From contig OZ029914.1 of the NCBI GenBank assembly GCA_964023275.1, forward strand, positions 35,638,424-35,702,423: 64,000 nt of DNA, written 5' to 3'. The position numbers were made by a program, and so were the translations under genes. The DNA comes from Norana najaformis. Lineage: Eukaryota > Annelida > Clitellata > Crassiclitellata > Hormogastridae. Positions 1 through 52,564 of the stretch are shown piece after piece (positions within the stretch are counted from its first letter, which is position 1; each line of letters opens with the position of its first letter). The notes under the pieces were generated by a model. The model saw only the letters and a program-made list of their open reading frames with translations. It was not told the origin of the DNA and did not search any database.

Positions 1-61
1 AATAATAATAAAAATTTTGGCAAGTGAACAGAGACATCCAAATCAACAATTATGCGTCATA

Positions 62-20500: not shown

Positions 20501-23500
20501 GTTGAGTTAAACTAAGAGGCAACAGAGAAAAACGAGGAAACTCCACACGAGACAGCCATTCCACGTATACACTCCAAGGTGGCGCCACTGAAAGACCGGA
20601 TGTATATACCGACATATACACATAAATACATATATACAGTGCATGTGTCAAATCGGTTGATGAATATAGATATGTGTATGTACATATGCTGTATGAATGC
20701 ATGTATGTGACAGTCATACATATACATATTCATAATGAGTGTATATATGTATCTATGTACAACTCATGAATGTTATTCACTGGACTATGGGCAGCATTCA
20801 ATGCCACCATGAGGCATTGACCCAGACTGAGTATATACACTGTAGCATCATCCTTACTCCAACATCCACAAATATGGTAACCCACATAATTTCCTCCTCT
20901 GAAATGAAACTAAGTATGTTTGAAAGGAAAGAAAGGAAATATGGCCTGTTACCTGTGTCACAACTGCATGTTGTGAAGCCATGCATGTTACAAAGACTTT
21001 CGCACACACCATTCTTACAAGTTCCTCTGCACAGAGAAACACAACAAGACAAACCAAAATATAATGCATTGCAACAATATAATTATTTAAAATTTTGAAA
21101 TCCTATAAATGTATCAAACACGGATGTTTACAAATTTCTAGACTAGAAAGTCATGTTTGTAGAAAGCAGACACTATTGGAATCTGACAATGCATGTCTGC
21201 TAATCAATCACATTCCCCGTACCCTAAAACTGCGCCCTATTGAAGTTACTAGACAAACTGGGTGGTACCAGCTGCAAGGAAAGTGCTTCGACCAAACACA
21301 GTTAATCTCAGTACCACTTCAAACTAGATTGCTAGCTACTATCACATATTACCCTAAGAGTTGTAGATTTCTATAAAATTGGGCAATACCACCTATCCAC
21401 GAGGTTTCAAAGTTCTTTGTTGAAACATTTGCTACCTTTAATCGTAATGCTACATTACTGGACACATTGGCATAACTATAAGCCCAAAGGTTCACAAATG
21501 CCTTCTTAGAGTTTATACACCTAAATTCAGCATAAAAAGGCCCTTTCAAGTCACTCAAGGAGATCTGAAATTCAAAAGTGAGCTAACCATTGGACATTTA
21601 AATAAAACCTTCGGGTGCCAATTATCAAAAGTTTAAAAAAAACTAGACCCTTTCTCTGATAATGAATGCCTTTCTACCAGTAAGTCTGAACCACATAAAT
21701 TATTTTCAAAAGGCTGAATTTTAAATTACACAAGGCATAAAAAGCAATAAGAAGAAATATAATAATCTAGACTAAAAGAAACACATTTTGGTCTTTACTT
21801 ATTGAAACATTCTGTTCCATCAGACCTTATCTTTGAAGCCGGACAATCGGCACTAATTCCGCTACAGAAAGAAGTCAAAGAACATAACAGCAACAAACCA
21901 TGTGTTTAGCAACACTTACAAGAATCCCAATCAAAGCTGAATAATATGTAATATGTTTTATGTTCGTGCTTGTACATTTATCCAAAGTATACACTTCAGC
22001 ATTATCTGTCCCTGATTACATATCTCTTCCCTCGGCAACATAGGGTGAATGTCTGAAATGTAGTTGGTTAAAACATTGAAACCACGTGACTTAAGACAGG
22101 CCGAAGATGATATTGAAGCAGAAGAAATGAGTAGACCTTGTGAAGGTGTCTAAGAAATTAGTAAACACACTGAACAAGAATTTCATAATGATATAATAAG
22201 ACTTATACCATCATGAAATTAAATATTGATACTGGTTAAGAAATAACAATACCAACAATCATTTAAAATAAATATAATTATTACTGATAAGATAATTGTT
22301 TGACAGATGCAAAAATGCAATCATACAAATAATGCAGTCGTTAATTAAATGCGCAAGGAACAAAACAGTCAGAATAATATTCAATAAGAAGAGATTTTTG
22401 TCTGCTAGAAGGGGAGATCTAATCTACTCTAAGAATGCGTGAATACATTGGTGGAAGGTCCAATGTTTTCTGAATCAGATCAACTACATGCGGAACGACT
22501 TGCACTGTATGCCCATATGAAGACGGATTGAGTTTAAGTTGATTTATGCTGATATATAAAGTCTGGCTGGCCGGCTGTGCTCCACCCTGTCTTAGAAAAC
22601 CATGCATTTCAGTGTCATCTGTCTCTGACTGCAGATCTCTGCTCTGCAACACAGGGTGATCTCCTTGTTCCATCGTCCTCTACTTCCACAATGCAAAATG
22701 GAAGCTTTGCCAAGGTCGACCCAATATTCTGAAACAGACTTCCAGGCAACCTGCTACACGAGCTTCTTGTCCGTTCTATTCGTGTATCTCGGCAGCGGTT
22801 GAAGACCATTTTACTTGATTGTGGTCTTGCATTGTCAGGTCAGGCGCAGTCTGATGAATTTTCTTTAAGAGGCGTTATATAAATCTCTCCTTATCTGCAT
22901 GGACTTAGATCTGGCTCTTCCTCTAGCTTAGACACTAGCGTCATTATGCGTCCCTCAAGGCTCAGTACTCGAGCCGTTATTTTACAACCTCTATGCGGCT
23001 GATTTGACTCAACTCACCTCTTATGTTTGGGAGCGCGGGTTCATCAATACTCTGGCGACATCAACCTGTTGTAATATTGTGACATTCGGGATTAGAGAGA
23101 CAGCCTATAAAACCAGGGAACCAGAAGTTAGGTTAGGAAAGAACAGACGTCATGAACGTGCGCAATAAGGGCGGACAAATACAATATCTGGCGACGAGGA
23201 TATTTTACAAATACTCGTAAAAATGTTGGACCTTGGGGCAATACCCCAATTCGCGCCGTTTTTGAGTGACGTGGACCCGGCTTCATCGGCATTTCGGTGG
23301 AAGAAATGAACCGATAGATTCGAAAATCTCATGACGGCGCTCAACATAACTGATAACAATCGCAAACGTGCCCTCCTCCTCCACCTACCTGGCGAAACAG
23401 TTTATGACATCTTTGAAGGCCTGGTCGTGGAAACAGTACCGGGTGACGCCGACACAGGTGAGAATAACGCATACGCTACGACGAAACGTGCGCTTGATGA

Positions 23501-26500
23501 ACACTTTAGTCCAAAGAAAAACGTCGAGTTCGAAATATAACATTCGCTTAGCCAGACAAAATACTGATGAAACCACGGACGCTTTTCATGCAAGGCTTCG
23601 CTCGCTGGCCAAAAGTTGCACTTCAACGAGGCTGCGAAGACGAGGTCTTGCAGACTTTGAAATGACGCTGAAAGTTTTGTTAGACACAGCCCGTGCAATG
23701 GAGACGTCTGAACGACAGGTGAAGTCATTGAAACAGGTTTCGGTGAGCGAGATACCAACAACCACAAGATCGCTCGAGTGGTCAGTCAACCAAGACAACA
23801 CGTCAAGAAACTGAGATCTACTGAACAGGTATGTCGTAATTGTGGTCTTCTGTATCCACACCCCGGTGGGAAAATGCAGTGCTCAGCATGGGGGAAAACC
23901 TGTTTTGCAAGCAATAAACAAAACCACTTCCAGAGACAATGTTGTAGCATCATGAAGTTTCAACGATCGATATCACAAGGTAAAAGAAACACTGTTCAGA
24001 ATATGACCAGAGCTATACAACAAGTTCGTCAAGTACGTGAGGAAATGCAGGAAGATGTGAGCGATGAAGAGACAGAAGATGAGTATGTATTCGTTATTGA
24101 AGAAAAGGAAAAGATGAAACAACCGTATGCCTGTGTCCTTGTTAATGGTTTCTCAGTTGAGATGATGATTGATTCAGGTGCCAGTGTCAATATCATAGAC
24201 GAAAATATGTTCCAAACATTCCTGATTCTCCGAATCTGAATCTGTCGCAGACTAGAATACATTCATACGCATCTAAATCACCAATAGATATAATAGGTTA
24301 TTTTGAAACTAAAGTGAGGCAAAAAAGAAACGCCACAAACGCCGTGTTTCATGTTGCCAGAGGAAACAAAGGATCACTGTTGCGCTTCACGAGTGCATTG
24401 GAATCATTAAAATCCACCTCAATGCCATAGAACCAATGGAACCAATAACGACTGAGTGGCTGACAAACAAATAGCCTCAGATCTTTGAAGGAACAGGCAA
24501 GCTGAACAACTTCAAGGTAAAACTTCACACGAATGAAAGTGTTAAACCATCGGCACAATAACACAGAAGGGTACCGTTCCACATACGCAAGAAGGTAGAA
24601 GACGAACTGAATCTTCTGCTTAAACAATGCATTATTAAACGAGTCAATGGACGAACGCCTTGGATGTCACCCATAGTAACACCAGTAAAGCCTAAAAAAC
24701 AGATAAAGTACGCATTTGTGTCGACATTCGACAAGCGAATAGAATCATTCTTCGTAAACGGCATGTGACTCCAACTCAAGAAGACATCATCAGTGACCTA
24801 AATGGGGCGAAGAAATTTTCAAAGTTGGATCTTCGTGCTGGTTACCATCAACTGGAACTAGATCCTGCTAGCCGTTACATCACAACGTTTACTACCCATA
24901 TCGGTTTGTTCCGCTACAAGAGATTAAATTTTCGGATTTCTTCAGCCAGCGAAGTGTTTCAAAATACCATAGCGCAGGTGTTTGATGGTATCCCTGGTGA
25001 TATGAATATCAGCGATGACATAATCGTATATGGTTGTACAGCTGCAGAACATGACAAGAATCTACTTGCTGTTATTACACGGTTACTGGATTGCGGCTTA
25101 ACTTTTAATAAGAACAAGTGTGAGTTGAACAAAACGAAACTTATCTTCTTTGAACATGTATTCTCAGAGAAAGGAGTTGGTGTTGATGCTGAAAAGGTTG
25201 ATGCTCTAGTAAAGGTCATATCGCCGACAAACGCAACAGAGGATAGAAGCCAGCTCGGAATGATAAATTACAGTTCGCGGTTCATTCAAGACTATGCAAC
25301 AAAGACTGAACCTTTAAGTAAGCTAACCAAAGCGGATGTACCGTTCATATTGGGGACCTGTTGAACATAAAGCATTTAATGAGCTCAAAACATGCTTGTG
25401 TCAGAATGCAGTTACGGCTTATTATGATCCGAATAAGCGGTCAAACGTCACAGTTGATGCGAGCCCTGTGGGTCTTAGTCCTATTCTTGCCCAACAGTAT
25501 GATCAAGATAGAATGCAAGTAGTCGCCTATGTTAGCCGATCTTTGACAGATGTTGAGATGCGTTACTCTCAGACATAATGTGAAGCACTGGCATGCGTCT
25601 GGGCATGCGAACGTTTACACAGATATTTGTATGGATGTTCTTTCGACATGATTACAGACCACAAACCGCTTGAGGCTATATATGGGAATCCTCGATGCAA
25701 ATTATCTGCAAGAATGGAAAGCTGGAGCATTAGGTTGCAGCCGTATGACTTTAGGATCATTCACAAAGCTGGAAAAGATAATCCTGCTGACTACATGCCT
25801 CGACACCCAATGACCGACAGAGGAGAAAGAGACGACAGATCAGAAAAGATCTCTGAGGAATATATTAATTTTATCATTCACAACGCTGTTCGTAAAGAAC
25901 AGATTGAAGAAGCAACCATGGGTGATCAGATGCTGCAGAAAGTTCTTGAATGCATTAAATCTAACAACTGGAGTGAAGCACGCAAGTCAAGTCTTCGGCA
26001 GTACTACCATGTCAGAGATGAACTATGTTTATCAGCAGATGCGAAGGTGTTGTTGAGAGGTACTCCAATCGTGGTACGGGAAAGTCTACAAAAGGAAATC
26101 AAAAGATTGTCACGTGAAGGTCATCAAGGCATAACAAAGACAAAGAAACTTCTCAGACAGAAAGTTCGGTTTCCTGGTATAGCCAAAGCGGCAAGAAGAC
26201 GCATTGAGAAAATGCCTATCTTGCCAAGCAGCCACACCGGAAACGTCTTCAGAACCGTTGCAGATGTCATCACTACCAAAAGGTCCGTGGCAGGACCTGT
26301 CGACTGATTGTGTGGTCCATTGCCAAGCAGAGAATACTTACTTGTTATCATGGATGACTATTCAATGTATCCAGTCGTCGAGATAGTCACTACAACGTCG
26401 GCCAACGCAGTGATTCCAGTATTTGATGGAATTTTCTCAATGTTCGGAAAACCAGTGACAGTAAAAAGTGACAATGGCCCTCCATTCAACAGTGACCAAT

Positions 26501-29500
26501 TCCGAAAGTTTGCTCAGTATTCCGGTTTTATTCATCGACGCATCGCTTGCTATTGGCCGAGAGCAAATGGTGATTTATGCGAACGCTAAAGAAATCATTT
26601 CAGATAGCTCACATGGAGAAGAAGAATTGGAAACAAGAAATGTACACTCTTCTTCATGCGTACAGGTCAACAACACACAGCACCACGGAAACGTCTTCAC
26701 CAGCTGAACTTTCGTTGAGATATCCATTTACAGGTCGCATTCCTGAGGTAACAAAATCTGTTCCTGATGAAGATGAAGAGTTAAGAGCACGTGACACTAC
26801 AGCTAAGCAGAAAATGAAAGCGTATAGTGACTTTCGAAGCCACTGCAAAGACAAGCTTAGAGTGGGCGATACTGTGCTGGGAAGAAAACCTCGAGGAAAC
26901 AAGCTATCCAGCTGCTATGATAACATTCCACTGACGATGAAAGATGTTCGTGGAACAATGATCACAGCTGCTAGGCAAGGATACTCCGTAGCAGAAAATT
27001 CGACAAGAAGAGTACCATGTTTGGCTGGGAACACTCTGGGCGCTCTCAAACTTCGACGAAAGTGCCATGATTGGAATCTATAGCTTCTCGTCCACAACAT
27101 GCGTGTAATTCTGGACGGAGACTTCTCAGTGGCAGATCACGAGAACCTCCATGCAGGTCCTGCTTCTATCAGTGGGCCAGATACGGGTCATATGGTGAAA
27201 TCTGTCGTTCAGCGCTGCAGTCACAATCACTCACTCGTTTACCCTTATGCGCCTGAATTATTGCAACTCAATCATTGCGGGTCTGCCAAAGTTCCGCCTG
27301 GGCTATCTCCAGTCCGTCCCCAACTGTGACGCCCAGGGTATAGTCAACAAGCCAAAATATTGGCAAATACATAAGAAATATACTAAAAAAGATGCTACAC
27401 TGGCTTTCTGTTGCGGCGCACACTTCTTTAAAATCATCTTGCTGGAACGTGCCTCATTTGTTCAGCATTGCTCCCAATATATATAAGGGTGCTCTGTGTT
27501 CCAGTTTCGAGTCAGCAGCGTCGGGTGATCGTTATGCGCTGCTACCCGTTGAGATACACAGTTGCCGCACTCCCGCATTTCAACTCGAGCCCATCGCGCC
27601 GTCTCATGTGTTACCACGTGCTCCTGAAAGCGACTAAATAGACTGCATATGCGTGCTGTCGCATTTGACCCTGTGCAACAAACCCCTTCCGAAAGCACTT
27701 ATTTCAACAGTCGATAGCCACGGATGCAGCGCTTTTGCAAGGTACCCAAAAGCGCTACATTAACTGTCTTGAGACATACACGCATCCTTACAAAATTACA
27801 AAATCTTGACACCTAAAGGCATTAATAAAATAAAGGCACATTATTATGATTATGATTATTATTAGAAAGAAACGGGATAAGAGCACTATTTAGGATCAGC
27901 AGAACGTGGATTATAAAGCAGATATTGGCTGCACGCAAATTTCATTACAAGTATTCAATGCACATTATTTTTTAATACTATTACTATAAAATATTGTTTA
28001 TTATAATCACTGCTCTGAAATAATTATTATATTACAGTGATGTCATATCCTAAATAATTACTCTCTGCCGATATTGGCCCCTCTGAATGTGCCATAAAAG
28101 CAGCTGCATTAAAACGCTGGAGGGCCAAATACAGCAAGAAAGAGGCAGTCTCTCTCATGTCTCCTGTCGTTCGTAAAGCCATCTTGGTTTGAATATTCTT
28201 GTAAATAAAATTATTAATATTATTATAACTAATTTACCAGTCATATTATTATAACTAGTTTAATAGTTTCTCACATTATTATTATTTTTTTATTATTATT
28301 ATCATTATTATTGTTGTTGTTGTTATTACTTCTGCTATTATTTCTACTACTACTATTCTAGGCCAGTCAGCTTGGTTTCATACAAAAGGATACTTGCACT
28401 TGCTGTCTAGCGCACAAACGTCATTAGACGTGCGGAAGCATGTAAAATTTTCAGTTGCCGACATGATCTGGCAGTTTTTGCAGCACAAACTATTGAAGTC
28501 ACTGTTAGAAAGAAACTGACACAGTGTATACAAACACAGCTTAATTAAGAACGTCAAGCCATTTCATTCTGAACGCTTGAGACATTTTTGTTAAATGGAC
28601 CAGTATGAGTTATAATTAAATTAAACTAACAGCCACTTCAAAAAAGCAGCAACACATCACAGTGAATGGAAGATACTGATCCCTTTTTGGTGCTGCCAAA
28701 TCATTCTGCATTGTAATGAGGTTAAATTATAAGAAAGTAATTACACACTAAGTTTGATTATTTAAACTTGGGGTCCATGTTTGGAACTACATTGTATATG
28801 AGATGCGTCATTCAACTAGTGTACACGATCATATGGCCAATTGAAGTAACTTAACTACACCGAGCCTGTGGTCTTAGTTTGCAGTTGCTATCACAGCATT
28901 TGTCGCCATCAGATGCAACATCGAATCCGGGATCACAGTCTTCCTCTGGGTCGATTCGATAGTTCCCACAGAAGGTCGACTTTTTCGCTGAAATAATACA
29001 AACAAGACAAATGACTAACAGCACATGAAGACACTCAATATAGTGCAATTTGAGTACCTCACAAAAGTGCTGTGCACACGTGGCTATCTAACAGATCAGT
29101 GTAGGGTGTGTTATAAAAACACCGTTTTGGTCAAGTGCTAATAAGGTGTCTTGTCATTGGATTTTTTGGTCATGTTTGCACCTTGAGTAGCCAAATAATT
29201 ATTAGACCTCAAGATCACACATATGTATCTAAGGAGTTTCAATTGATGCCGCCAACCAAATGTGTTACCGTTTTACCATTACATTGTAGCTTTTTTCAAC
29301 AATAGAAGAATGTTTTCGGGATTTCTTTTCAGTCTGCTGTTGTGCTGATGTCGTGTTGTAATATATTTAGTCATTCTATACCATGTTCTATAAACATGTT
29401 CGATTCTCAAATAAAAATTAAGGCTACTTACTTACTTACTTATACTGCAGACTGCAACTTTAAAAATCTGTTACCGATAAAGCAGGACGATTTTTCGTTT

Positions 29501-32500
29501 AATGCAAGACCGATTGAATTCTTGGAACAGGGTGAAAATAACTAAAACACAAAATCATCACAAACGAAACAATGTCAAAATTGCTCTACAGCATCTGTTT
29601 AAACGTATGGTAGGCCCATACAAATTCGAACTATGGTCGGGTCGACATAACGTCAGCACCTTTATAAATGTCAGATTACAGTTATAATTACCTTAAACCT
29701 TCTGTAAGATTTGAAGTTACTGTTAGGCTCTACAGCAGCATATTTCAACGCCAGAATCTAATATCTTTTCAGACTAAACTGATGAAATGAGATTTGACTT
29801 AATCTGGAGATTAAACTAGAAGACCGAGCTATCATCTGGTAATGCTTTGAAAATTATTAAAATTGCACTATTGAAGTACTCAAAAAGGTTCTTGATTTTC
29901 GTTAACTATTGATAAGAAAATTACACATACGATATTATTTTTATCTTGGCCGGATGTTAAGGATGGATACATCAGGTACACTCCACCTTGATCTGCTGAA
30001 GGTGTACAGGAATCAGGATCATGAGGAGAGCCCCAGTTGTGTCCTTAAAATTAGAAAATACACAGCAACTTCTCCAGGCAGATTTTAAAGAAACGACTCT
30101 ATGCTTATCATACATAAACTAGAACATGCTTTATAGCCTCTAGTTGTTTGTATTTCAATTACCAAATGTTAAGACAACATAACAAGAAGAGTTAAAGATA
30201 ATAAACTTATCAAAAAAGTAGATTTTAACAAAATGTTCTTGCAGTATGCTAGAACATGGCAAACTATACATATGAAAATTGGCAGAAGGCATCCGTGTTA
30301 AAAGTCTAATGCGTGTAAAGTATTTTAAAAAGACAACTATCTAGGTATAAGGGGAATTGCAGTGCAGCAGAGTGGTGTTAGGCTGTAATGCAAATAGCAA
30401 TGTCGTATGTTAAATCCTCATAAGGACTTCATATGTAGGACATATGAAGTTCTTATGAAATTGCTGTCATATTCTCACCCTATCTTCAACATATAATACT
30501 TATGACGTTGCTGTTGGGATCCCATGTATGTGTGTTAGTAAGTATTTGGGTATGTGTGTATGTATGTATATATCAAGACACTTAATATAGCGCATTTTGA
30601 GTAACTCACAAAAGTGCTGCACACATAGCTATTTAACAGTTCAGTGTAGTAGGTGTGTTATAAAAACACAATTTTCGTCAAATAAACGTGAAAAGTGTCA
30701 TTTAATGAAACAAACAATCTCACAGAAATCACAACAACCCTTATCCCTTCCAACTGACTGTAACCTCTTCTAAATTATTTCAAGCTAGTAAATGTAACCC
30801 AAGCTGCATAAAAACAAGTAGCATATCATCATAACTGAAATTGTGATGAAATGTAGCTGAAATTAATTCGTTTTTGTCTGAGTTGCATAACTTATAAACC
30901 CAATTTTTATGTTTTATTTTTTCATTATTGAGTTTAGTTTCAGTGTGATCTTACACCGAAAAGGAAAACATGACATAACCGTGCGAGGTGCTTTGCCACA
31001 ACCATTGGCGCCAATTTACAATGGCAGTTAAAAGGAACCATTTCTATACAACTCATAATAGTGCTAATCCCTTCCAATTATCTCTAACCTAATCTGAATA
31101 CTTGTAAATTACTTTAAATGATTCTGAGTTGCATATAAACACTGGCAGTGCATCATAATAAACTGTAATGAAATGCAACAAAACCGAAACATCTCCCCTT
31201 TCGAAATTTCAGCAATAAAGCAGCTTGAATACTTTTTTGTTCCAAATCTCAGCCAAGGTTTAACACATACCAATTTCTGAAAAAGCACACAGCCAAAGCA
31301 AATTATTTTGACTACATTAAAAATTCCAAAGTATTAGGCTTACATGATAAAAATCTATGAAAGAATGACTGAATGAGGAAAAAGCAGTTACCGGTAATGG
31401 GATGCGAGATATTCTTAAAAACTTGTAAGATTCAGCAAAAGAAGTAAGCAAATCTATACATGCATCCCAAAAATAGCCATGAGTAGCTGTTGAGGGAATT
31501 CCTCAAACATTCATGGTATCACCAATTGCCATTTAATTAAAGACTTGTCAAAGATGAGTGTTATGAGTGCAATACTCTGTGTTTCTCAAAGCTGTGTACT
31601 ATGGTCTCTGATCATGGCCTTTCTAAGTGTCAATCAATTGGGCTGTAAACTATAGACTCGCCCAATCTGTAGCATAGCATTAGCTCTATAGGAGACACAC
31701 AGTCTCTGATTTTCGAGTATATATAATTGAAAAACTGAACAGTTCAACGACAACAGACCTTGAACGTGAACATGGTTGTTAAGTGCACAAATCTTTAAGC
31801 AACATTTGTGACTTAAATTACCAAGTATACAACACACGGCTGCTACAAAATCTTTCTTGCACTCTCCCCACGATGCAATTGCGACTGCATTTAACGGCAT
31901 ATTTGTCGCCAAGTGAAAGGTCGCCGTTAATATCCAACAATGCGCGAGAAAGTCCACCAATCAGAAGAATATATTTAAAATGCGCATGAACGCCAACCAA
32001 TCACAAAGAAGTCATCAACCATATGACTCACCTACATTACGTCACAGAAATTTAGGGCTTTAGTACCCGAAACCCACCGGCCTTCGTCAGTCAACTCCCC
32101 AACCCGTGATCAATGCGTGTCAGAAAGATAAACTAGTCAACGTAACCACGTGGTCAAAAGCCAATTAACAAACCAATGACTCGACGGTGTGAAGTCATTG
32201 AAATTTCCAATGAAAACGGGCACTTACTCAACGTTGAAAAAATTCTGTTAACGGTCTAAGAAACGTTTGCATTTGGGTCATTTCATGTCAAATCAACCAA
32301 AATTCATAAACGTCCTCACCACACCATCTCAGAATTCGATGATATTAGGTCAGTTTACACATCAACATGTGATAGAAGGCCTTGCAAAATATTAGCTCTT
32401 AATCTTGCATGATGTTCAAGATATGACCAGTTTTATACCAAGAGGTAACGACACCTCGTGAACGACTTAATTCTGGGGCATTTCTGATTGCGAATAACTC

Positions 32501-34019
32501 AAGAATTATGTCAGATACAGCTGTCCAATTTTCGTCAGATTATCAGATCTTAGAGTAGAGTCTAACCATGTAAAGACTTTGTAGTTTGCTGTATTACCCA
32601 TTAACCCAGCCCAGATTGAAAATGGCAATTCGTTCATTTCGGCAGTACGAATCTTGATATTTGAACATGCGCTGGTGTGCTTTTTTAACATATAAAGTCT
32701 CCAATGTTTGTGGCTTAATTATGGAAAGTGATAAGGGTTGTTGTGATTTATGTGAGACTGTTTGTTTCATTAAGTGACACTTTTCACGTTTAATTGACCA
32801 AAACGGTGTTTTTATAACACACCCAACACTGATCTGTTAAATAGCTATGTGTGCAGCACTTTTGTGAGTTACTCAAAATGCGCTATATTAAGTGTCTTGA
32901 TATATACATACATACACACATACCCAAATACTTACTAACACACATACATGGGATCCCAACAGCAACGTCATAAGTATTATATGTTGAAGATAGGGTGAGA
33001 ATATGACAGCAATTTCATATGAACTTCATATGTCCTACATATGAAGTCCTTATGAGGATTTAACATACGACATTGCTATTTGCATTACAGCCTAACACCA
33101 CTCTGCTGCACTGCAATTCCCCTTATACCTAGATAGTTGTCTTTTTAAAATACTTTACACGCATTAGACTTTTAACACGGATGCCTTCTGCCAATTTTCA
33201 TATGTATAGTTTGCCATGTTCTAGCATACTGCAAGAACATTTTGTTAAAATCTACTTTTTGGATAAGTTTATTATCTTTAACTCTTCTTGTTTTGTTGTC
33301 TTAACATTTGGTAACTGCAATACAAACAACTAGAAACTATAAAGCATGTTCTAGTTTATGCATGATAAGCAGAGAGTCGTTTCTTTCAAATCTGGCGGGG
33401 GAAGTTGCTGTGTATTTTCTAATTTTAAGGACACAACTGGGGCTCTCCTCATGATCCTGATTCCTGTAGACCTTCAGATGAAAATGGAGTGTACCTGATG
33501 TCTCCATCAAGCGGCGAAGATAAAAATAATCTCGTATGTGTAATTTTCTTATCATCAGTTAACGAAAATCAAAAATCTTTTTGAGCACTTCAATTGTGCA
33601 ATTTTAATAATTTTCAAAGCATTACCAGATGATAGCTCGGCCTTCTAGTTTAATCCCCAGATTGAGCCAAATTTATTTTCATCAGTTTAGTCTGAAAAGA
33701 TATTAGATTCTGGCGTAGAAATGTGCTGCTGTAGAGCATAATAGTAACTTCAAATCTTACAGAAGGTTTAAGGTAATAATAACTGTAATCTGACATTTAT
33801 AAAGATTCTGACGTTATTTCGACCCGACCGCGTATTTTTAGACCATACAGTGCTAGAACTATAATGCTATGTCGACAAATAGGAATGAAATTGAAGTCGA
33901 CCAATAGAATTCGAGTTATTAATAGTGTGACATACTTTAGGTTTATTGCAGTCCCTCAAACTGCCTCGTTTTAAATTTAACAAAAAAATAATAATAATAG
34001 GTATTAGTAGTAGTAGTAG

Positions 34020-34055
<36 letters not shown>

Positions 34056-37000
34056 AACTACAACTAGTAGTAGTAGTAGTAGTAGTAGTGGTAGTAGTGG
34101 TAGTAGTGGTAGTGGTAGTAGTAGTAGTAGTAGTAGTGGTAGTAGTAGTAGTAGTAGTGGTAGTAGTATTAGTAACTTCCAATGCGCCGATGTTTAACGC
34201 ACAAGGCATAATAATAATAAAAAAAATATTAATATTAATTAGTAACTCCCTCAAACTGCCTCGTTTTAATGATAAATAATAATCGTAATCGTAATCGTAA
34301 TCTCGAAATTTCTACAGCGCTCAACGATAGCTAAGTCGCGGGAACCAGCTTATTCACAGGCGCTCAGTCAAAACAAAATCGATAGGCAAAAGGGTCAAGA
34401 TCCAGGAGTCAGGCACTCAGACAGTCGGACGGCTACGGTGGATGCTGTTTGAAACTGAAGCGAGAAGAGAGACAAGAGGAAGAGGAAGAATCAGGATAAG
34501 ATTTCTGGAAAAGAAGTGTTTTCAGTCTTGAGTGAAAGGCCTGCGCAGAAACTGAAAGAGGTGAAGTGTTGGTGAGTTCGTATGATTGACCAGACAACTG
34601 TCGCAATTCTGGCGGGAGTTTATTCCAAAGGGGTGGGGCAGCTATGGCTATGGAGCGATTTCCAAATTTTAAGGATGAGGTGACGGGAGGGCGAAGAAGT
34701 GTTAGGACAGATGAGGAGCGGGTTGAACGGAGTGGTTGGATAGTAAATAATTGACGAAGATAGGAGGGTTGGGAGGATTGAAGTGTGTTGTAGGTGAGGG
34801 ATAAGACTTTGTACTCTATTCGTTCTGGTATTTTAAGCCAGTGCAGTGATTTGAGAACAGGGGTGATGTGATGGTATTTGGGGGTTTTGGTGACAGCACG
34901 TGCGAGAGCATTCTGGATAGCTTGTAGGCGATTTATCTGGGTTGTGTCAATATTGAGGAAAAGTGAATTGCAGTAGTCAAGTTTTGCATGGACTATGGAT
35001 GTGGCAATGATAGATGCGGTTTTGAAGTCAAGCATAGGACGGATTCTGCGAAGGTCGCGGATATGCATAAAGCAAGAGCGGGAAAGATGGCTGATATGAT
35101 CAGAAAAAGTAAGGTTCTGGTCGAAAATAACACCTAAATTACGGACAGAGGAGTTAGTATTAAAGGTGTGGGTGGAGGCAGAGTCAAGGCTGAGGGAGAT
35201 AGAGGGGTCAGGAATTTTCTTCAGCTGGTCACGTAGGCCTATAAGTATGAATTCAGTTTTAGATGGGTTCAGGCATAAGAGATTAGATGTCATCCAAGAG
35301 GAGATTTGTTTAACCACACAAAGAAGATGATCTGTAGATTCATTGAAACAATTTGAAGAGAAAGAGATGAATAGTTGGGTGTCATCAGCATAGAGGTGAT
35401 GGTCAACGGAGGATGCTTTAATGAGTGAACTGAGTGGGGTAGTGTAGAGGATAAACAGAAGAGGTCCAAGAACGGAGCCTTGTGGAACTCCGCAAGTAAG
35501 AGGGCATGACTTAGAAGAGGCTTCCGAAGTTTTAACAGAGAAAGAGCGGGAGGAGAGATAAGACTGTATCCATAGGAGAGCAGTGTCAGCAAAACCAAAC
35601 CAGGTTGAAAGTCGGTGGAGTAAGATATTGTGATCTATGGTGTCGAAGGCTGCAGAGATATCGAGGAGACAGAGGCAAGAAACCTGTTGATGAGAAATGG
35701 CAGAAACAAGCTTGTTGTAGAGAGATGTCAGCAGAGTTTCGGTTGAGTGGCGTTTAGTAAAACCAGACTGGTGTGGGTTAATGAGTGAGTTAGAAGCTAA
35801 ATAGTTATTGATTCGAGAGAGGACAATCCGTTCAGTTAATTTGGAGATGAAAGTCAGGTTAGAAACAGGCCGGTAGTTAGAAAGGATTTCCTTGTCGAGA
35901 GATGATTTCTTGAGAAGAGGGGTAACAAGAGAGTGTTTAAAAAGAAGGGGAAAATTTCCAGTAGAGAGAGAGAGGTTAACTATTTTGGTAATAATTGGAA
36001 CAAGGACAGATGCACAGTCTTTCAATAAGGAGGTAGGTATAGGGTCAAGTTCACATTGTTTGTTTGGGAGAGATTTTAGCAGATTTAGTATTTCGGTCTC
36101 TGATGTAGGTTGAAAAGCAGAAAATGAGGATCGAGGTGGGGAAGGTGGACTGTCATAGGTGGAAGAGGGAGCATCAGCAGCTGGATTGTTGGAGGTTTTG
36201 GAAAGTAGAGATTGAAGAGAGAGACGGAGGGTACTAATTTTGTTCGAAAAGAAAGAACAGAACGAGTCGGCTATTGAAGAAGACGGAAGAGAATTTGGAA
36301 GTGGACTAGATGAGTTCCGATGGAGGAGCTGGTTAATAGTTTTCCAGAGAAGGCGAGGGCTAGAGGATCGAGAACGAACTAGTGAGGAGTAAAATCTTTG
36401 TTTAGTTGCAGTAAGAAGGCGATGGTATTTATTTGTGGCAGATTTAAGGGCACAGAGAAGTTGAGCATCCCTGGTGCGTTTATAGGCACGCTCAAGGCGT
36501 CGCCGGAAAGATTTGAAGGCCTGGAGATAGGAATTGAACCAAGGATTGTTAGAGTGAGAACGGGATTTGGTAATAATAGGAGCATGCTTGTCAAGGATAG
36601 TGGAAAGAGTGGTGTTATATGAAGAGAGAAGGTCATTCAGGGAGGAGGGTGGATTTAACACGAGATCAGAACAGGAAATATCTTGTGTGAAGGCTTCAAT
36701 ATTTATTGAACTGATGCGACGAAAAGAATGAAAGACAGGATCAGGACGTGGTGTCGGAAGAATGTTAAGATATGTAAAGATGGGGTAATGATCAGATGGC
36801 GAGTCAAAAGAGAAAGATATATCAGGTGATAGAGTGGAGAACGATGACGTGATAATGAGGTCAAGTGTGTGATTGTGAATGTGGGTGGGGAATTTGACAT
36901 GTTGAACCAGATTAGTTGAGGACAATAGGGTGAGGAATTCAGAAGCAAATGTGTCAGAGGGGTTATCGACATGTATATTGAAGTCACCTGTAATCAGAAA

Positions 37001-40000
37001 TTCATGAGGTGTAGTGGCGGCAGTAGAGAGGAGGGTGGTAAATTCTTTCAGGAAGACCGATGGAGGACTTGAATATGAAGAGGAGGATGGAGGGCGATAT
37101 ACATTAAAGATAGCACTGGCCAACAGAAAATTTTTTTTTCTTGTTGCCTTCGGTTTTAGACCTGTTCTTGGGGTAATTTTGGGCGCTGATTCAGAAAATG
37201 TCATTGGATTGAGTGCATCAGGTCTAGTTTCTGAGATATCGTCGATTTTGTAAAGAAAACCCAGTCCACTCTTTAAACGATGTCTTTGGCAAAACTAAAA
37301 TGTCATAATAAGCTTTATTTATGGCTAATTATAATTCTTGCTGATTCATATAATGCCTACATCCTTATAATGTAAAATCAGCATATCTTGCCGCGTGCTG
37401 AGATATTGCTGATTTAACGAAATAACTATTCCGTAGCCTACAGCTTACTCAACACTAAATTCATGGCCTCATTTAGAATTTATTTGTGCTTATACAGCGT
37501 TTCATGGTTTCGAACTATGTAAATAGATTATGCTGAAGTCAGCATTTATATAGCCTATATAAACCGCCTCCTGAAAGCTAGAGCAGCCGCAGTCGTCTTA
37601 GGGCATATTAAGAGTTGGTCGCAAGAACAATCTGTGAATGTGAGCATTAAATAACTACATGTTCTTACTATTTTTTAGGTTAGTCATTTAATTCCTCAGA
37701 TGCGAACATCCTTAAGGTTATGGCTACTTCCAGACGGAGCTGCGTTAACCATCCAGACATATTCTGCTACATTTGTGGGGAATACACACTAAAAGCAAAC
37801 AGGAAACCGATTTCTGAGTTTGTAAAAAGAGCATATGTAGGTTATTTTGGTGTCAAACTTGGAGATCAAGATAAGCAATGGGCTCCTCATACAGTATGCA
37901 AAACTTGTATTGAACAATTGCGCCACTGGACAATTGGAAAGAGAAGCTGCCTGAAATTTGGTGTACCGATGGTTTGGAGGGAACAGATAAACCACTTCGA
38001 CGACTGTTACTTTTGTATGGTTAATATCATAGGCATCAATCGAAATAATCGTCACAAGTTGTCTTACCCTGATATACCTTCAGCCAGGAGACCTGTTCCG
38101 CATTCGGATATTGTACGAGTTCCACCTTTTCGCGAACTACCTCAGCTCTCAGACGATGAGACTTGCATGTCCAATATCGGACAAGATGACGAAAGTAAAG
38201 AAAGTGGGGGCAGTGACAGTGATTTCCAATCAACTTCACACAGTGAACGTTTTGACCAAAAAGAGTTGAGTGATCTGATCAGGGACTTAAATCTTTCCAA
38301 AGAGTCCTCTGAATTGCTTGCGTCCAGACTAAAGGAAAAGAATGCACTTCAGCCTGGAACGAAAATTACAATTTATAGAAACAGAGAAAAGGATTTGCTG
38401 CCATTCTTTACCGAAGACAACAACCTAGTATTCTGTAATGACATCAGCAACTTATTGAAGAAAATTGGTCTGTCGGATTACAGCCCAGATGAGTGGCGTC
38501 TTTTTATCGACAGTTCAAAACGTAGTCTGAAATGTGTGCTTTTAAATAACGGCAACAAATTTGGTTCTATTCCAATCGGTCACTCCACCAGGATGAAAGA
38601 AGAGTACAATGCCATCTCTTTAGTACTGGAAAAGATAAAATACAAAGAACATCAATGGGTAATTTGTGTAGACTTGAAGATGGTAAATTTCCTCCTTGGT
38701 CAACAAAGTGGCTACACAAAGTATCCCTGCTTTTTGTGTCTTTGGGACAGTAGAGCCAAGCATGAACATTGGACAAGAAAAGATTGGCCTTCGAGGAAAG
38801 ACATGGTGGTTGGAGCTCAAAATGTAATCAAGGAATCTTTGGTGGCACGAGATAGGATCATACTGCCACCACTACATATAAAGCTAGGCCTGATGAAACA
38901 ATTTGTCAGGGCTTTGAATAAAGAAGGTTCATGCTTCGAATACATAGTACACAAGTCACCAGGAATTACAATGGAAAAATTGAAGGCTGGAATCTTCGAT
39001 GGTCCACAGATCAGGCAACTTATGAATGACCCACTTTTCATACCATCAATGAATGAAATCGAATCTTGTGCCTGGTCTTCCTTTGTTCTTGTAACTAAAA
39101 ATTTTCTTGGCAACAAGAAGGCAGACAATTATGCACAACTAGTAGAGGATATGCTTCTTCATTTCAACAAGCTTGGCTGCAACATGAGCATTAAAGTCCA
39201 TTATCTCCACAGTCACTTAGATCGCTTTCCAGAGAATCTTGGTGACTTCAGCGAAGAGCAAGGTGAAAGATTTCACCAAGACATCAAAACAATGGAAAAT
39301 CGATATAAAGGAAGATGGGATGCACACATGATGGCAGACTATTGCTGGAATATTATGCGCGATTGTTCCGGCAGATGCCACACTTGGAAATCGTACAAAA
39401 GGAGCTTCTTCGGTGTCGAACGACTTGAAATTTTTATAACAAACTTGTTCTGTTTGGTATCATATAAGTACAGTTTCAGGTACTACCATTTTCTTTTAAG
39501 TATTTGTATTATTATGTTTATTTAGTGTATCACATAATAAATTGAGCACTACATAATTATAGCTATAGCCTTATGTTTTATGTTCAATATCTCGAAAACT
39601 AGACCTGCTGGGAGAAAACTGGTTCCTTTTCTGGAATCAGCAGGTCAAATATACCCAGAAACAGTTCTAACATTTGAGGCAACAAATTATGTGTTGGCCA
39701 GTGTAGTCAGATTTGTGTGAGGAAGTTTAAGCGTAACTGATGCACATTCAAAAGAGTGGAAACAGTAACCAGGTGAGTCTAAAACTGTGGCAGGTTCTCG
39801 GGTGAGAAAGGCAATACCACCGCCAGTTGGATTTTTATGAGAAGGGCTAGATGGTTTGCAAGGACGAGGTGTACTGTAAAGATGGTAGCCAGGAGGAATA
39901 CAGTCTTCATATTGAGCAAGAGTGGTGTTTAAATTAAACCAGGTTTCAGATAAGGCAAATATGTCAGGCGGGTGAGAAGAGAGGGCTATATCACTGATTT

Positions 40001-43000
40001 CTTGTGAATGTGCAGGATGTAGTAATGATCGAATATTTAGCGTGCAAAGTAAGAAGCGGTTGTTGTCAGTATTTTGAGCATTGTCGAGGATGTTGGAGGA
40101 AGAAATTCTGGAAGGAGGAGGACAGGTAGGAGGTGAGGGAGGAGGACATGAATAAAAATCCAGTGGGCCAGGATTTGGGTGGATGTCCCCGGAAAGCAGG
40201 ATTAGTATGTTGAAGATGGTATGGCGGGTGAGGTGCTGTGGTGGTCGCCTGAGAGATGAAGTTAGGAAGAACGATAAAGGAATAAAATACATACGTCCAT
40301 ACTGCATAGTCGCAGTGCCAAATTGGGCGCAGTAAGAATGTTTGGCTGTAGGAACAATGTAGGGCAAGCGGGTGTGGAAGGGTTGGCAACTAATATGGAA
40401 GGCGATCATGAAACGTAGACCGAAAATAAGAAGAATGATTGAACTGTACATTATGTGATCTAAGATGACGTGGCAGTTTGATGAAGCTAAAATGGCGGAA
40501 GGTAAAGACGCAGGCGAACGAGTGCAAAAAGGACAAAAATTAGGCGAATCTTAAGTTGATAAAATGTTGAAACAAATAGGAACGAACTCACCAAAGACAG
40601 AGCATAAATCCGGTAAGAAAGAAAAATTAAAAAATCAGAAAAGACGTCGAAAAGTTAGAAAATATAGAATTGAGAAATAAAGCGCAATAATTAGTAACTT
40701 CCAATGCGCCGATGTCTAACGCACAAGGCATCAACCCATGGTGCACCAAAACCAAGCCACACTCAGGTCAATATCCAGAAGGTCAGTACACAAGACAGAA
40801 ATCCGGGCGGACAGGTAACGTTTAAGCTGAGAACGAAACGAAATCTTATTAGCAGAAAAATGTTAAGTGGACTGAAACTGCATAGCTAGCTCAATCGCTG
40901 TTTGTGCAGGAGCTAACCACAACGGAAATGCTAAGATATCTAGCTTTTTAAAATTAATTTTATGCCAAGGACGAGATTTTTCAGGCAACCATTCGAAACC
41001 AGAGCCCTCGGTCACCATTTTCGCCTACGCTAGGTCAAGGTATTTTTGGTCGACACAACATGGTATTCCTATTGCTCGACATAGCATTGTAGTTCTAGCA
41101 CTATATTGTCTAAGAATACGCGACCCGACCATAGTTCGAATTTGTATAGGTCTGCCATACGTTAAACAGATGATGTAGTGCAATTTTGACATTGTTTCGT
41201 TTGTGATGATTTTGTGTTTTAGTTATTTTCACCCTGTTCCAAGAATTCAATCGGTCTTGCATTAAACGAAAAATCGTCCTGCTTTATCGGTAACAGATTT
41301 TTAAAGTTGCAGTCTGCAGTTTAAGTAAGTAATTAAGTAAGTAGAATTAATTTTTATTTGAGAATCGAACATGTTTATAGAACATGGTATAGAATGATTA
41401 AATATATTACAACACGACAGCAGCACAACAGCAGACTAAAAAGAAATCCCGAAAACATTCTTCTATTGTTGAAAAGAACTACAATGTAACGGTAAAACGG
41501 TAACACATTTGGTTGGCGGCCTCTATAGAAACTCCTTAGATACATATATGTGATCTTGAGGTCTAATAATTATGTGGCTACTCAAGGTGCAAACATGACC
41601 AAAAAATCCAATGACAAGACAACTTATTAGCACTTGACAAAACGGTGTTTTTCATAACACACCCTACACTGATCTGTTAGATAGCCACGTGTGCACAGCA
41701 CTTTTGTGAGGTACTCAAATTGCACTATATTGAGTGTCTTCATGTGCTGTTAGTCATTTGTCTTGTTTGTATTATTTCAGCGAAAAAGTCGACCTTCTGT
41801 GGGAACTATCGAATCGACCCAGAGGAAGACTGTGATCCCGGATTCGATGTTGCATCTGATGGCGACAAATGCTGTGATAGCAACTGCAAACTAAGGCCAC
41901 AGGCTCGTTGTAGTTAAGTTACTTCAATTGGCCATATGATCGTGTACACTAGTTGAATGACGCATCTCATATACAATGTAGTTCCAAACATGGACCCCAA
42001 GTTTAAATAATCAAACTTAGTGTGTAATTACTTTCTTATAATTTAACCTCATTACAATGCAGAATGATTTGGCAGCACCAAAAAGGGATCAGTATCTTCC
42101 ATTCACTGTGATGTGTTGCTGCTTTTTTGAAGTGGCTGTTAGTTTAATTTAATTATAACTCATACTGGTCCATTTAACAAAAATGTCTCAAGCGTTGAGA
42201 ATGAAGTGGCTTGACGTTCTTAATTAAGCTGTGTTTGTATACACTGTGTCAGTTTCTTTCTAACAGTGACTTCAATAGTTTGTGCTGCAAAAACTGCCAG
42301 ATCATGTCGGCAACTGAAAATTTTACATGCTTCCGTACGTCTAATGACGTTTGTGCGCTAGACAGCAAGTGCAAGTATCCTTTTGTATGAAACCAAGCTG
42401 ACTGGCCTAGAATAGTAGTAGTAGAAATAATAGCAGAAGTAATAACAACAACAATAATAATAATGATAATAATAATAATAAATATTAATAATAATGTAAG
42501 AAACTGGTAAATTAGTTATAGTAATAAGACTGGTAAATTAGTTATAATAATATTAATAATTTTATTTACAAGAATATTCAAACCAAGATGGCTTTACGAA
42601 CGACAGGAGACATGAGAGAGACTGCCTCCTTGTTGCTGTATTTGGCCCTCCAGCGTTTTAATGCAGCTGCTTTTATGGCACATTCAGAGAGGCCAATATC
42701 GGCAGAGAGTAATTATTTAGGATATGACATCACTGTAATATACTAATTTTTTCAGAGCAGTGGTCATAATAAACAATATTTTATAGTAATAGTATTAAAA
42801 AATAATGTGCATTGAATACTTGTAATGAAATTTGCGTGCAGCCAATATCTGCTTTATAATCCACGTTCTGCTGATCCTAAATAGTGCTCTTATCCCGTTT
42901 CTTAATAATAATAATCATAATCATAATAATGTGCCTTTATTTTATTAATGCCTTTAGGTGTCAAGATTTTGTAATTTTGTAAGGATGCGTGTATGTCTCA

Positions 43001-46000
43001 AGACAGTTAATGTAGCGCGTTTGGGTACCTTGCAAAAGCGCTGCATTCGTGGCTATCAATATTCGTACTGCCGAAATGAACGAATTGCCATTTTCAATCT
43101 GGACTGGATTAATGGGTAATACACCAAACTGCAGTCTTTACATGGTTAGACTCCACTCTAAGATCTGATAACCTGACAAAATTGGACAGCTGTATCTGAC
43201 ATAATTCCTGAGATATTCGCAATCAAAAATGCCCCAGAATTAAGTCGTTCACAAGCTGTCGCTAACCCTCCCCCCGGTATAAAACTGGTCATATCTTGAA
43301 CACCGTGCAACAATAAGAGCTATTATGTTTGCAAAGCCTCCTAACACATGTTGATGTACAAAATGACTTAATATCGTCAAATTCTGAGATGGTGTGGTGG
43401 GGACCATTGGTTGATTTGACATGGAATGACCCATTTGCACTGGTGATGTCATAACAATACACCAGGTAGTGCCGCTGTTGCTGAACACTCACTTTAACTG
43501 GGACTACCTAGCACCCTAAGGCAACAGCTTCTGAGCCTTTTCCTGTCTTCCTTAATTCTTGGCTGAAAACCAGCTGGTTTGCTGGCAGACTGGAGTTGGA
43601 AGTGCTGAAGTTTTCCTGAACTGTTCCTCCATAAATGTTCACTAATTACCAAAAAGTACTGCATCTGCTAATATCCTGTGTTCACAGATGATGCAATACT
43701 GATACAGAATAAGATTGCATTTTTAATGTCAACTTACACCAAAACTTGACCAACAGCATACTACACGAGCTTTAACACACGTAATTAAAGACGGGAAGAA
43801 TGAATCAGTTACCATGAGACGTGATTAGCGTTGCTGGCAAAGACAGGTATTCACTCAGTCTTCCATAAGATGTCAATCCACTATTTCCATGACCTGGTCA
43901 TGAGTGATGCAACAGTAATTTTTGACATGCATGTAACTGTAAAGTGTTCGGAAAAATATGCATAAAAAATTTCTAAACAAAAACTTTATTAATAGAACCT
44001 TGTCTACTGTCACTACACATGAAGAGGAAACTAATCTTATGCAATGCATAATAATCATTCATTTATGCAACACAGTCTTTGCGTCTCTGTAAAGAATTAC
44101 ACTAATCGGTACCGAAAATTGTAACTTAAAATATAAGGAAACAAAGGGTGCTTACTAGAAGAACAGATGGCACCAAGCCATGCTATTCCAAGAACGTCAG
44201 GTCTGTCTTGAAATACTTGGTGGGTGAAGAGATGACCAAGGCAAAAGTCAGGCAATGCCGGATCTTTACCGAATTCCTTAAAGCAAATATAACAAGACCT
44301 TATTCAACATGATTCCAACTCTGAACATTGCCACTGCAAATGCTTCAAGATTTTGTAGGTACTATAGGTAACTAATACCCAAAAGGAAGGGCACTTCTGT
44401 ACGTGTGTTTCTGTGACTCCATGACAGTTTTAACATAGTGAAGTCACCGCACACGACTTTTGATGATGATGATGATGACGATGATAAGAATAATAACAAT
44501 AATAATAATAATAATAATAACTGCCTTTCCAAAGCGCTCTAATTTTATTAAGACCATCTTTTGATGCTCCTAGGGTTAGCCACTTGCTTCGCTGTTCTTG
44601 CTCTAAACATCCAACTCTGGACCGGCTTGATTATACCGTGCGAGAAGGCCTCGAGTCCATCGACAATATAAAACTTGACAACACTCAGTGGCTGCAGGCC
44701 ACATTGCTTATAAGATATGAGGAACTTGGAATGAGGAGAGTAGGGTCGTTGGCTTCTTCTTCAGCTGCGAACACTCTCGAACTCCAGTCCACAATTCTTA
44801 GTCAATTCCTCGAGACTTCCGATTCGCATATGACAGATCTGATGACGGCTCGTAGGGAGACACTCCCATCAATCGTCTCACTGCCACCAAAACAGGCTAT
44901 CTGGGACGGACTTATGATTTAATTGGATGGGTCGACGGTTTGGGCAAGTTCCGAGAAACCGACCGATCGAGCACGGTTGCCCGCAGTCAGCTGCCCCCAT
45001 TCTGGCGATTGGCTGACCGCACTTCCCATCTCATCATGCGGTCTATGCTTAAGCAACGAGGCGATACGAGAAGCAGTTGGCCTCTGTTGGGGCCTTAACC
45101 TATGTAGCCCACTTAAATGTCGCTGCGGTGATTTGGTAGGCCGTGTTGGTTTCCACGGTTCCGACTGCAGACCGGCTTTTGGAAGATCCCTTCGTCATTA
45201 TGCCATCAATGACATAGTCTGGCGAGCTTTACAGAAATCTTATGTCACCCCGAACTACTAAACCACCCGGCTTGTTCCGCTCTGAGGGCAACAGACCAGA
45301 TGGGGCTACAGTGGTCCCATGGGCGGCTAGGAAATATCTTGCCTGGGATGCCACAGTTGTGCATACCTGTGCGGCATCTTACATCGCCCACTCAGCAAAT
45401 TCAGCAGGATCAGCGGCAGAACAGGCTGCCATTCGTAAAACCTAAAAATGTCTAGGGCTACCATCGACATATCTTTTTCTGCCCATCGCATTCGATACAC
45501 TGGGCTCAATTAATTCTGCCGGGTCGAATTCATCCACGAGGTTGGCCGTCGCCTTTCGACCATCTCAGGAGATTCACGAGAGATTGCATGCTTTCCTTCT
45601 TCAGCGCCTCACCACCTGTATTCAGCGCTATAGCCCCATCTCTTTCCGGGGCACGTTTCCTGATGCTGCTCATGACGAGGCCTGATTTCCCAGACACCCC
45701 TTAACAGCTCCTCGAGTAATTTTTCAGCTACTGAGTGATTATATTTTTTTAAAATAATAATGTCAACACTAGAATTCTAATTTCTGAGAGGTTATGATTA
45801 TCTTGGCTTTAAAAATATAGCAATTATTCAGATCTTGTGATAAGTACTAGAAAAGGCACTGTACGAATTGTCTTGACTACACGAACAGTGTCATTGCTTG
45901 ATTCACACTGAATGACAACAACAACAACAACAATGATATGCTGTGGCACTATACGTAAAATCAAGACACCGCTGTACAAGACGCTAAAATGAATATAGGC

Positions 46001-49000
46001 TCATTACTCGGAATAGTAAAATCATAGTGAATTCTTGAAACCTGCCGAAAGTCTATACCACATTAGGTCTAAAAGCTGCAAAGTAACTTGCAATCCCATA
46101 GAATAAATACCAAATCTGTGTAAATACCGAAAGAAGGTCAGTGCTATCCCAGCTTTTCTCGTTGGTGTACGGAAAACCCGGAGTTGTCTGAGGAAATATG
46201 TTTATCTGTGGATTATCACAGAATAAAAATTATAGCCTAGAAAAACCTGGGTCTGTAACTTATTACATACTGTGAACGTACTAAAATCAAAGAAACATCT
46301 GACAGAAGATACAGGCTGAAGGAAATACGAAAACGAAATCACAAGAAAATATACAAGTAATTTATATAGCACTTCAATAAAACACTTAAATGGCACTTCT
46401 TGGCTAATTTTCTAAACCTCATTTACAACATGATGTATCTCTATCAGGTGTTGATCTCGCATTTAAAGCTAGAACAGACAAATTAGTGATGTTAGGGTTT
46501 AACAAATGTTATTCTGACTATAAGAATAAAATATAACATTCTAGAGGTTACTTCGGCTAAAGTGAAAAATGACAACAATCCAAAAGATAGCTTCTCTGCA
46601 TGAATTACATGGCTTTACAATGAATTATTCATTAAACTTTAATGCCAAAAAAGCAAAGGCCTAATTAATTTGCCACAGCGTTCAAGTATGATTATGAATA
46701 AAACATTTACTGGAATAATGAAATTGGAAAAGCCTGATTAAATGGCTAATAACAGGAAAGAATTTGAATACATACTTTCTTCACTTCAAACCCAAAGCCT
46801 GCATCGCAAGGATGAAACTGATGTCCTCTGTAGATCTGATCAATCCTGTCAAAAACTGATAACTAAAAGAAAACAACTGCAAACTGAAAAAGTATGACAT
46901 GCATCACCAATTCAATAAAACTTCTTGCACTTGAAGGTAAATATAAAACCTTTGCGCTTCAGGCCTTCAAGATCAATCTTCCAATGCAAACCTCTTCCAC
47001 TTGACGTAGCTGACTAGGTGAAGAAATATTTTCAGCTCAAGAACGGGGCAGGTATAACTCATAAATACATACATAAATATACTCATTGATAATAATATTA
47101 CTACATTTGTTCTTCTAAATAAACAAATGAAATGTGCAGAAAATATGCTTTGAATTTTTTACTTAGCCCAATCCTCCTTTCAATCTCAATTTAACTCAGT
47201 AATGCTATGATTTTTAATTTATCCCAATCCTGCTTAGAATTCTAATTGAACTCAGTCTTTGCTAACTGTTGTTTGAGAATCTGATTGTTTCACCAAAAGA
47301 CCTAATCATCTTTAGGACTCCTCCAGGTACCAGAAGAACTAATAAATTGACAGTCATCCTAAATCCTCTGCCTCTAACGACCTTTCCTTCAGTCTCTTAA
47401 ATGTAATAATTGTTACCTTAAACGTTATTTCACATAAATTCAGAGAGAAATAAATCATACAGATAGCCAATGATATTTTATTCCACTTAAATTCAAAGAT
47501 AAATTAATAATTCATGGCAGATAATAAATCAAGAAATTAACCAGTCGGTTAGTTGTTTCTGTCACATCATTATTCCCAACATTTTTGACGAATCTTGGAT
47601 CAGCCGCTAGATAGAGGTGGCATGTATTTTTGTCAGTATTCTTGCATACATCTCTCTTTGGCCTGGATTCTGAAATTTGTTACAAGTCATTTTGCAGAAC
47701 AATAGATGAAGACACTTCGCATACTTTTTATTCCATTACATCTTAAAAGTTTGCTTGTTTATTTGTATATATGAATTTATCAATACGTTCAATACAGCGC
47801 CTTTTGTTACCTCTCAAAAGGGGCCTTTAAGAAGTATTTAAAAATATCTTGCTACCAACACTTAAAAGTTTGCAAAAACAATGATATTTCAGGACAGTCC
47901 GTGCCATAGACAGCATCTCTAGTCCGACAGCCATCTGCCTGAACTGTGTTGGATCTAATAAAAATTCATTTTCTAGGCGCTGCAGTATCAAATTACCCTA
48001 TCCTGTAGCACATTTAGCCCTGCAGAATTCCAGGGCATTAGAGAATTCAGCATTCTTATAGCATTTGGGTAGCCTAATCAATAACTGTTATTTCTGCATT
48101 TTACTAAGCGCCACCATTTTATGCCTAAGCTTCAATCAATGGCTTTGCGCATTTGTGAGTGAATGATTTCCTTAAAGTCCCTACAAAGTCACTGTCTCAG
48201 AGCAGGCTCGAATCAGTACTCTCCGCCTTAAAAGTCAAGTGCTCTAACCAATCGGCTACCGTGCCTTAAGAACTGTAATCTAGGCCTTAGTACACCGCTG
48301 GACTTAAAGTCCCCAAAGAGAGATGGGAGGGGCATAAAGCCAATTGTGGAGAAAGTCGGACAAGAGGGAGGGAGGGAGGGGACTAAAGCAGTTCATTTTT
48401 CGCAGATTTCCTTTTTGGACAATCCCACACACATATATATATATTTATTTAAGAATTATATAATTACTCCTGGCAATAAAGTCACTAGAACAGTCAATTG
48501 AAATCTGAGTCTGAGAATCTAATTAATCCAAAAAAACTGGGAAAAGTGTAACAATCGACTTTTGCAGATTTCTTGCAGTTTTGAGCAAAAAATTACAAGA
48601 ATTGACCAAAAGCAAAACAACACAGACTGAATCCAACAATTTTAGCAGATGAGACGCAATGGGTTGGATAAATCCGTATTTTCTCGATCACGTACTTTCA
48701 GTTTCGTTCATAAGAAGCTGATCAGTGACAAATTCCAATTCATCTCCACCATCACTTACATAGCCACATCGACTAAACAAAATCAAACATTCTCCAACAG
48801 TTTTCTCTTGTGTTTCTGTGCACAGGTAACAAACAAATTTCCTCATTCACAATTCAGTAATTCGTTGGTTTCTTATAATAATTTCAAATGGTATATGTCA
48901 TTTACATAGTCAGTGAGAGACAGTAAAATCAAAAAACAACACCCAAGTTAGGAGCAGCATCAACTAAATTAACAAGTCATCCTGTTTTAAATATGTTTGC

Positions 49001-50165: not shown

Positions 50166-50223
<58 letters not shown>

Positions 50224-52307: not shown

Positions 52308-52542
52308 TTGAAAAACTATTACCGGCGTCATAACAGACTGACGATAAATAAGTTTTAAAAATTTAAAAACATAAAATTCTGAGACGACACTAATCTTCAC
52401 TAGTTAGCATATTGAAATAACCACATATTAACTTTTCACACGAATATTTGGTAATATTCAGCTTTCACATCGGCGTATTTTTCGAATCTTTGACAGCGTC
52501 TAACCACAGATTATCTATCGAAATACTCAACACCCCAATAAG

Positions 52543-52550
52543 TGACGTCA
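52543..52550. promoter_or_regulatory. Perfect CRE palindrome upstream of gene B
   Basis: TGACGTCA lies 236 bp upstream of the candidate gene B ATG on the transcribed strand. The site is the CREB/ATF consensus. It is placed where a promoter would be expected, but there is no transcript evidence. Confidence 0.35.
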
Positions 52551-52564
52551 TTGTTATTGCGCCG

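Follow-up and report, generated by a model that had tools for sequence, protein, structure and literature searches.

An inverted copy of four ADAM17-like exons within a foldback element in an intron of the same gene in Norana najaformis

One gene in a tandem array of ADAM17-like genes of the annelid Norana najaformis carries a block of four exons twice, in sense within the gene and as an inverted copy within one of the gene's own introns, where it takes the place of the interior of a foldback element. The sequence analysed, referred to here as the window, is a 64-kb stretch of DNA (C2:35638424–35702423). Our comparisons lead us to favour, as the probable origin of the copy, microhomology-mediated template switching inside the intronic foldback element, followed by patchy gene conversion and with no selected function attached to the product.

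The initial annotation had described two reverse-complementary arms, each holding the same four exons, and this was confirmed by Self-BLAST of the window, which aligned 27713–29644 with 43057–41121 (minus orientation, 97.3% identity) and 29635–30752 with 33829–32722 (minus orientation, 94.3% identity), and by matches to human ADAM17. Over both pieces the arms agree at 2932 of 3033 aligned bases with 62 gap columns (96.7%), and the longest perfect duplex runs between them are 288, 242 and 240 bases, against a chance reverse-complementary word of about 16 bases at most in 64 kb as given by a random-sequence formula. The two arms stand as annotated, with the right arm extending further, to 32717, but the foldback element around the copy and the gene array had been missed. 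The arms and the DNA between them are as follows:

27713–30752, minus strand (the gene lies on the minus strand): left arm, the block belonging to the gene itself; its four ADAM17-like exons are in sense.
30753–32275, no strand: spacer between the arms on the loop side, intron DNA common to paralogues.
32717–33829, plus strand: right arm, proximal part, with the inverted e12 copy at 33430–33533.
41122–43057, plus strand: right arm, distal part, with the inverted e13, e14 and e15 copies.

The exon boundaries in both arms were called by eye, and the exon labels e12–e15 follow the numbering of the initial annotation:

29931–30043, minus strand: left e12, GHNWGSPHD...DKNN, end of the metalloprotease domain.
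29475–29541, minus strand: left e13.
28855–28987, minus strand: left e14, disintegrin-like, with a putative donor.
28394–28501, minus strand: left e15.
33430–33533, plus strand: right e12.
41223–41289, plus strand: right e13.
41781–41913, plus strand: right e14.
42267–42374, plus strand: right e15.
43813–43893, minus strand, called by eye: predicted exon immediately upstream of the host intron of the inverted copy.

Human ADAM17 matches the left set on the minus strand and the right set on the plus strand, which bears out the annotated sense and antisense orientations. The matches to e12 have E values of 3e-9 in the left arm and 2e-4 in the right, and those to e14 and e15 have E values of 3e-7 and 0.005, respectively, in each arm; e13 (E 10 in each arm) is not significant alone and was accepted because of its place and splice sites. 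The e14 peptide by itself also matched ADAM17 chains in the PDB (E 4.7e-5), and a prodomain exon gave a weak match to human ADAM17 (E 0.035). Exon finding provided further candidate upstream exons, all predicted. The gene resembles ADAM17 (TACE) in having metalloprotease-end and disintegrin-like exons, regions in which similarity to the family is present, and would differ from it at the predicted join of 43813–43893 to 29931–30043, which is without the glutamate of HExxH, the zinc motif that includes the catalytic glutamate. The same exon end, CATG before GTAACTG, is found in 7/7 other copies compared, and this suggests that the array includes non-catalytic members, unless a tiny exon has been missed.

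The array was delimited by searching the 608-Mb genome (17 contigs) with 1001 bases of the left arm, e15 included, with 40 of 381 candidates scored. This gave at least 66 matches, among which our own grouping recognises no fewer than 14 places on C2, between 35.245 and 35.833 Mb; window 17000–53400 belongs to this array. Among the 14 places listed, 13 have the orientation of the left arm and the right arm alone is inverted, and on other contigs the matches listed are confined to a short repeat (query bases 482–648). The array DNA compared with the window comprised 200 kb with g35245, g35283, g35324 and g35368, plus pieces of six more units, and in this retrieved DNA the block occurs once per unit, in one orientation and with window-like flanks. 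Single paralogous units are co-linear with window 17000–32275 and 43432–52570, bar local insertions and deletions (in g35324 the equivalent of window 30363–45453 is missing), and it would therefore follow that both arms belong to one gene unit, as first annotated, in which 32276–43431 is extra.

Several other features of the array may be recorded here. Two block matches, C2:35501749 and C2:35513410, share one orientation at a distance of 11.7 kb, and these (only the second was retrieved) may represent the block duplicated directly inside a single unit. The 3' exon block of the gene is present in the window as three direct copies (1–4903, 19061–23961 and 59699–64000, the third ending at the window edge), and a tblastn search with human ADAM17 found no convincing upstream exons at 5–18 kb for the first of these. 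Retrotransposon pol-like frames with a reverse transcriptase in Pfam, which we would label Gypsy, lie beside the exon block at 24696–27083, and this insertion would be older than part of the array because 22652–27692 and 21201–27692 are common to two paralogues. Across 11 genes e12 is hypervariable, with a pN/pS of 1.65 (an uncorrected pair mean given without a significance test), compared with uncorrected pair means of 0.71 for e13, 0.26 for e14 and 0.58 for e15.

The inverted block is enclosed by the two ends of a foldback element, which are inverted, up to about 440 bp long and accompanied by ATTT target copies:

32276–32716, plus strand: X', left terminal inverted repeat of the foldback element, with an ATTT target copy before it.
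43054–43431, minus strand: X, right terminal inverted repeat of the foldback element, with an ATTT target copy after it.

X and X' are 86.7% alike, with a longest exact run of 42 bases. Among the ten paralogues, the equivalent intron site is empty in three (g35245, g35283 and g35703), has both element ends in two (g35368 and g35799), keeps the left end and interior in two (g35746 and g35592), and has been deleted along with its surroundings in one (g35324); for the remaining two (g35420 and g35513) the site lies beyond the retrieved DNA. The element in g35368 and g35799 is 1.3–1.4 kb long, with ends that start GGGTCATT and ATTT on each side. When compared with the paralogue copies, the interior of the element is absent from the window and the inverted exon block stands in its place. 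Inspection by eye of the two joins found CCA in common where the right arm meets X', the last ten or so arm bases there differing between the arms, and GATA in common where it meets X. Both joins thus have shared bases within the range of 2–5 expected of microhomology, a result which comes without a chance estimate and is less clean for the CCA join, and the 3–4 bases are weak evidence for template switching.

It should be noted that the end lengths are long/long in the window, long-left and short-right in g35368, and short-left and long-right in g35799. Identity between X' and the inner part of X is 92.0%, below the 96.7% of the arms, and does not support the copying of that part from X' in a single event with the exons. 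Together, these differences in end length and the 92.0% value indicate a path more complex than a single copying step in an ancestor like g35368.

The presence of an exon-free element at the equivalent position in paralogues makes in-place capture the most economical account, and we infer an order of events in which the foldback element settled in the intron ahead of some of the array gene duplications. At a later stage, in a change that none of the other genes examined shows, the hairpin-prone element would have suffered a break or a stalled fork, and repair would have used the gene's own four-exon block, lying 2 kb off, as template for an inverted copy of about 3 kb. The joins, at 3–4 shared bases, would have been made by MMBIR-type template switching. 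The copy would then have taken in a nest of mobile elements, and gene conversion would have evened out patches of it against the sense arm and probably also against paralogues. We also considered gap repair with filler DNA after excision of the element. An element that had captured the exons elsewhere and then jumped into the intron would likewise leave, in Pack-type fashion, a block between inverted ends with target copies, but we find this scarcely credible: the exon-free element at the same paralogue site makes in-place capture simpler, no other inverted block occurs among the matches listed (40 of 381 candidates scored), and those listed on other contigs are the short repeat already described.

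The arms, at 96.7%, are closer to each other than either is to any of the ten paralogues (94.8% at most), and they have in common 26 bases that occur in none of these paralogues, which places them third among the 66 pairs that can be drawn from the 12 sequences (two other pairs have more private bases, 35 and 30). At the protein level e14 and e15 each have one residue that only the two arms carry. Since the 26 arm-shared bases are missing from all ten paralogues, the inverted copy was probably made from the exons of the gene itself. Differences between the arms are clustered (chi-square 69.3, 12 df, p 4e-10), with 28463–29212 and 30213–30462 near-identical and 29213–30212 not. The left arm equals g35703 in three bins, and the right arm is locally closer to g35746, g35592, g35324 or g35420 than to the left arm, and so part of the block may derive from one of the other copies. 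Runs of identical variable sites reach 66, which is above the 95% permutation limit of 51 and below the 99.9% limit of 75, and it is likely that gene conversion lies behind the patchy similarity of the arms.

The right arm is split by later insertions, which are also relevant to the integrity of the assembly:

33830–41121, no strand: 7.3-kb nest of insertions splitting the right arm.
33821–33829, no strand: left copy of the 9-bp target duplication GACCCGACC (right copy at 41122–41130).

The outer element has inverted ends of about 47 bp, and the insertion holds endonuclease and reverse transcriptase frames (Pfam) on the minus strand which we read as LINE-like. The LINE-like element is itself split by a nested element of 2.47 kb (window 37114–39582), other array copies of which have 98.4–99.1% identity; the 613-aa frame of this element had no Pfam match, and the element appears to be recently mobile. 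In a repetitive array such as this one, two alleles or paralogous loci might have been misjoined to give the appearance of an inverted copy. We regard such an artefact as very unlikely, given that the window contains no N (0 bases in 64 kb), that the arms are closer mutually than to any of the ten paralogues, that the joins fall within an element at a site common to paralogues, and that the 9-bp target duplication brackets an insertion present in one arm only, the insertions there being layered. The presence of an inverted exon copy within the gene's own intron is confirmed as an observation.

The foldback ends may have a more active history than a single capture. The interior of the element in g35799 is the mirror image of that in g35368 (L034 5244–6606 compared with L026 3583–4848) and, mainly, of those in g35746 and g35592, while the outer ends keep their types, a 9-base stretch being present in 5/5 left ends and missing from 3/3 right ends. 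This indicates that recombination between foldback ends flipped DNA in this intron, and it leaves some room for an invertible exon cassette in which recombination between X and X' flips the block and at times supplies a second sense set with a different e12. The exons of the right arm are compatible with such use, as reading frames are open in both arms, the bases flanking e12–e15 are equal between arms, and e12 differs by nine nonsynonymous and no synonymous changes, plus 9 bases in frame, where e13–e15 together have no nonsynonymous and three synonymous changes. However, simple arithmetic from the numbers of sites gives the 9:0 pattern a probability of about 0.11 by chance, and the e13–e15 pattern is also expected from purifying selection on the left arm together with conversion; more generally, these small counts can be put down to conversion together with left-arm selection. 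X and X' are, moreover, only about 87% alike with no exact run beyond 42 bases, and no allele with the copy in sense orientation was seen. We therefore judge an invertible cassette to be decidedly unlikely, and hold out still less expectation for the broader proposal of a flipping cassette between the foldback ends that acts on the family as an antisense hairpin or provides a second sense set with a variable exon. If true, the ends of a mobile element would have become an exon switch in a diversifying gene array.

Returning to a copy made by template switching, a possible consequence, provided that the intron is transcribed, is pairing of the four exons with their inverted copies in the pre-mRNA; the resulting duplex would have the spacer (about 2 kb) towards its loop and the 7.3-kb insertion as a bulge. 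Back-splicing, which had been raised in the initial annotation, was set aside on geometry: it would not be specially favoured because the exons lie within one arm, not between the arms. Right-arm 21-base words that match paralogue exons come mostly from e14 and e15, which would in principle allow a hairpin to act on the gene family. A functional hairpin, through which small RNAs or editing would tune this gene and its paralogues, is in keeping with the location of both arms in one gene unit, with perfect duplex of up to 288 bases and with the 24–65 of 111 right-arm e14 words that match in each of the ten paralogues. We nonetheless consider it unlikely, as the arrangement was seen in a single array gene, 7.3 kb of insertions interrupt the right arm, and matching words from e12 and e13 are few or none in several paralogues. 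A neutral by-product without a selected function is the most likely status of the copy.

Published MMBIR and template-switch inverted duplications have an inverted copy of a nearby segment, 2–5 shared bases at the joins and nearby repeats (PMC2621351, PMC10766186, PMC3907307). The copy reported here is similar in its inverted nearby segment, shared join bases and existing repeats, and differs from those cases in being on a kilobase scale and within one intron and foldback element, with a pathway deduced from its outcome. Pack-TYPE transposons of plants, for which tandem insertion and re-mobilisation are named as the acquisition route (PMC8903248), also enclose host coding sequence in terminal inverted repeats flanked by target copies; unlike these, our example is from an animal genome, was apparently captured in place and has no moved copies among the matches listed (40 of 381 candidates scored). 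Hairpin RNA loci such as the soybean I locus with its chalcone synthase repeats (PMC3804491) and the Drosophila hpRNA loci (PMC10317233) are likewise inverted copies of family members, which can silence related genes, whereas here the antisense copy sits in the gene's own intron and is known from DNA alone. Screening of the open-licence literature by title and start of abstract found no counterpart to an intronic inverted copy of a gene's own exons, and no report of a tandem expansion of ADAM17-like genes was found in the open-licence literature.

The empty, filled and altered sites of the paralogues reveal much of the history of the inverted exon copy, and suggest that a foldback element can be the starting point for inverted duplications of kilobase size within genes. 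Intragenic inverted duplications of this kind are raw material for hairpin RNA loci, and the locus is a natural experiment on the fate of intronic duplexes, which may be tolerated, edited or processed.
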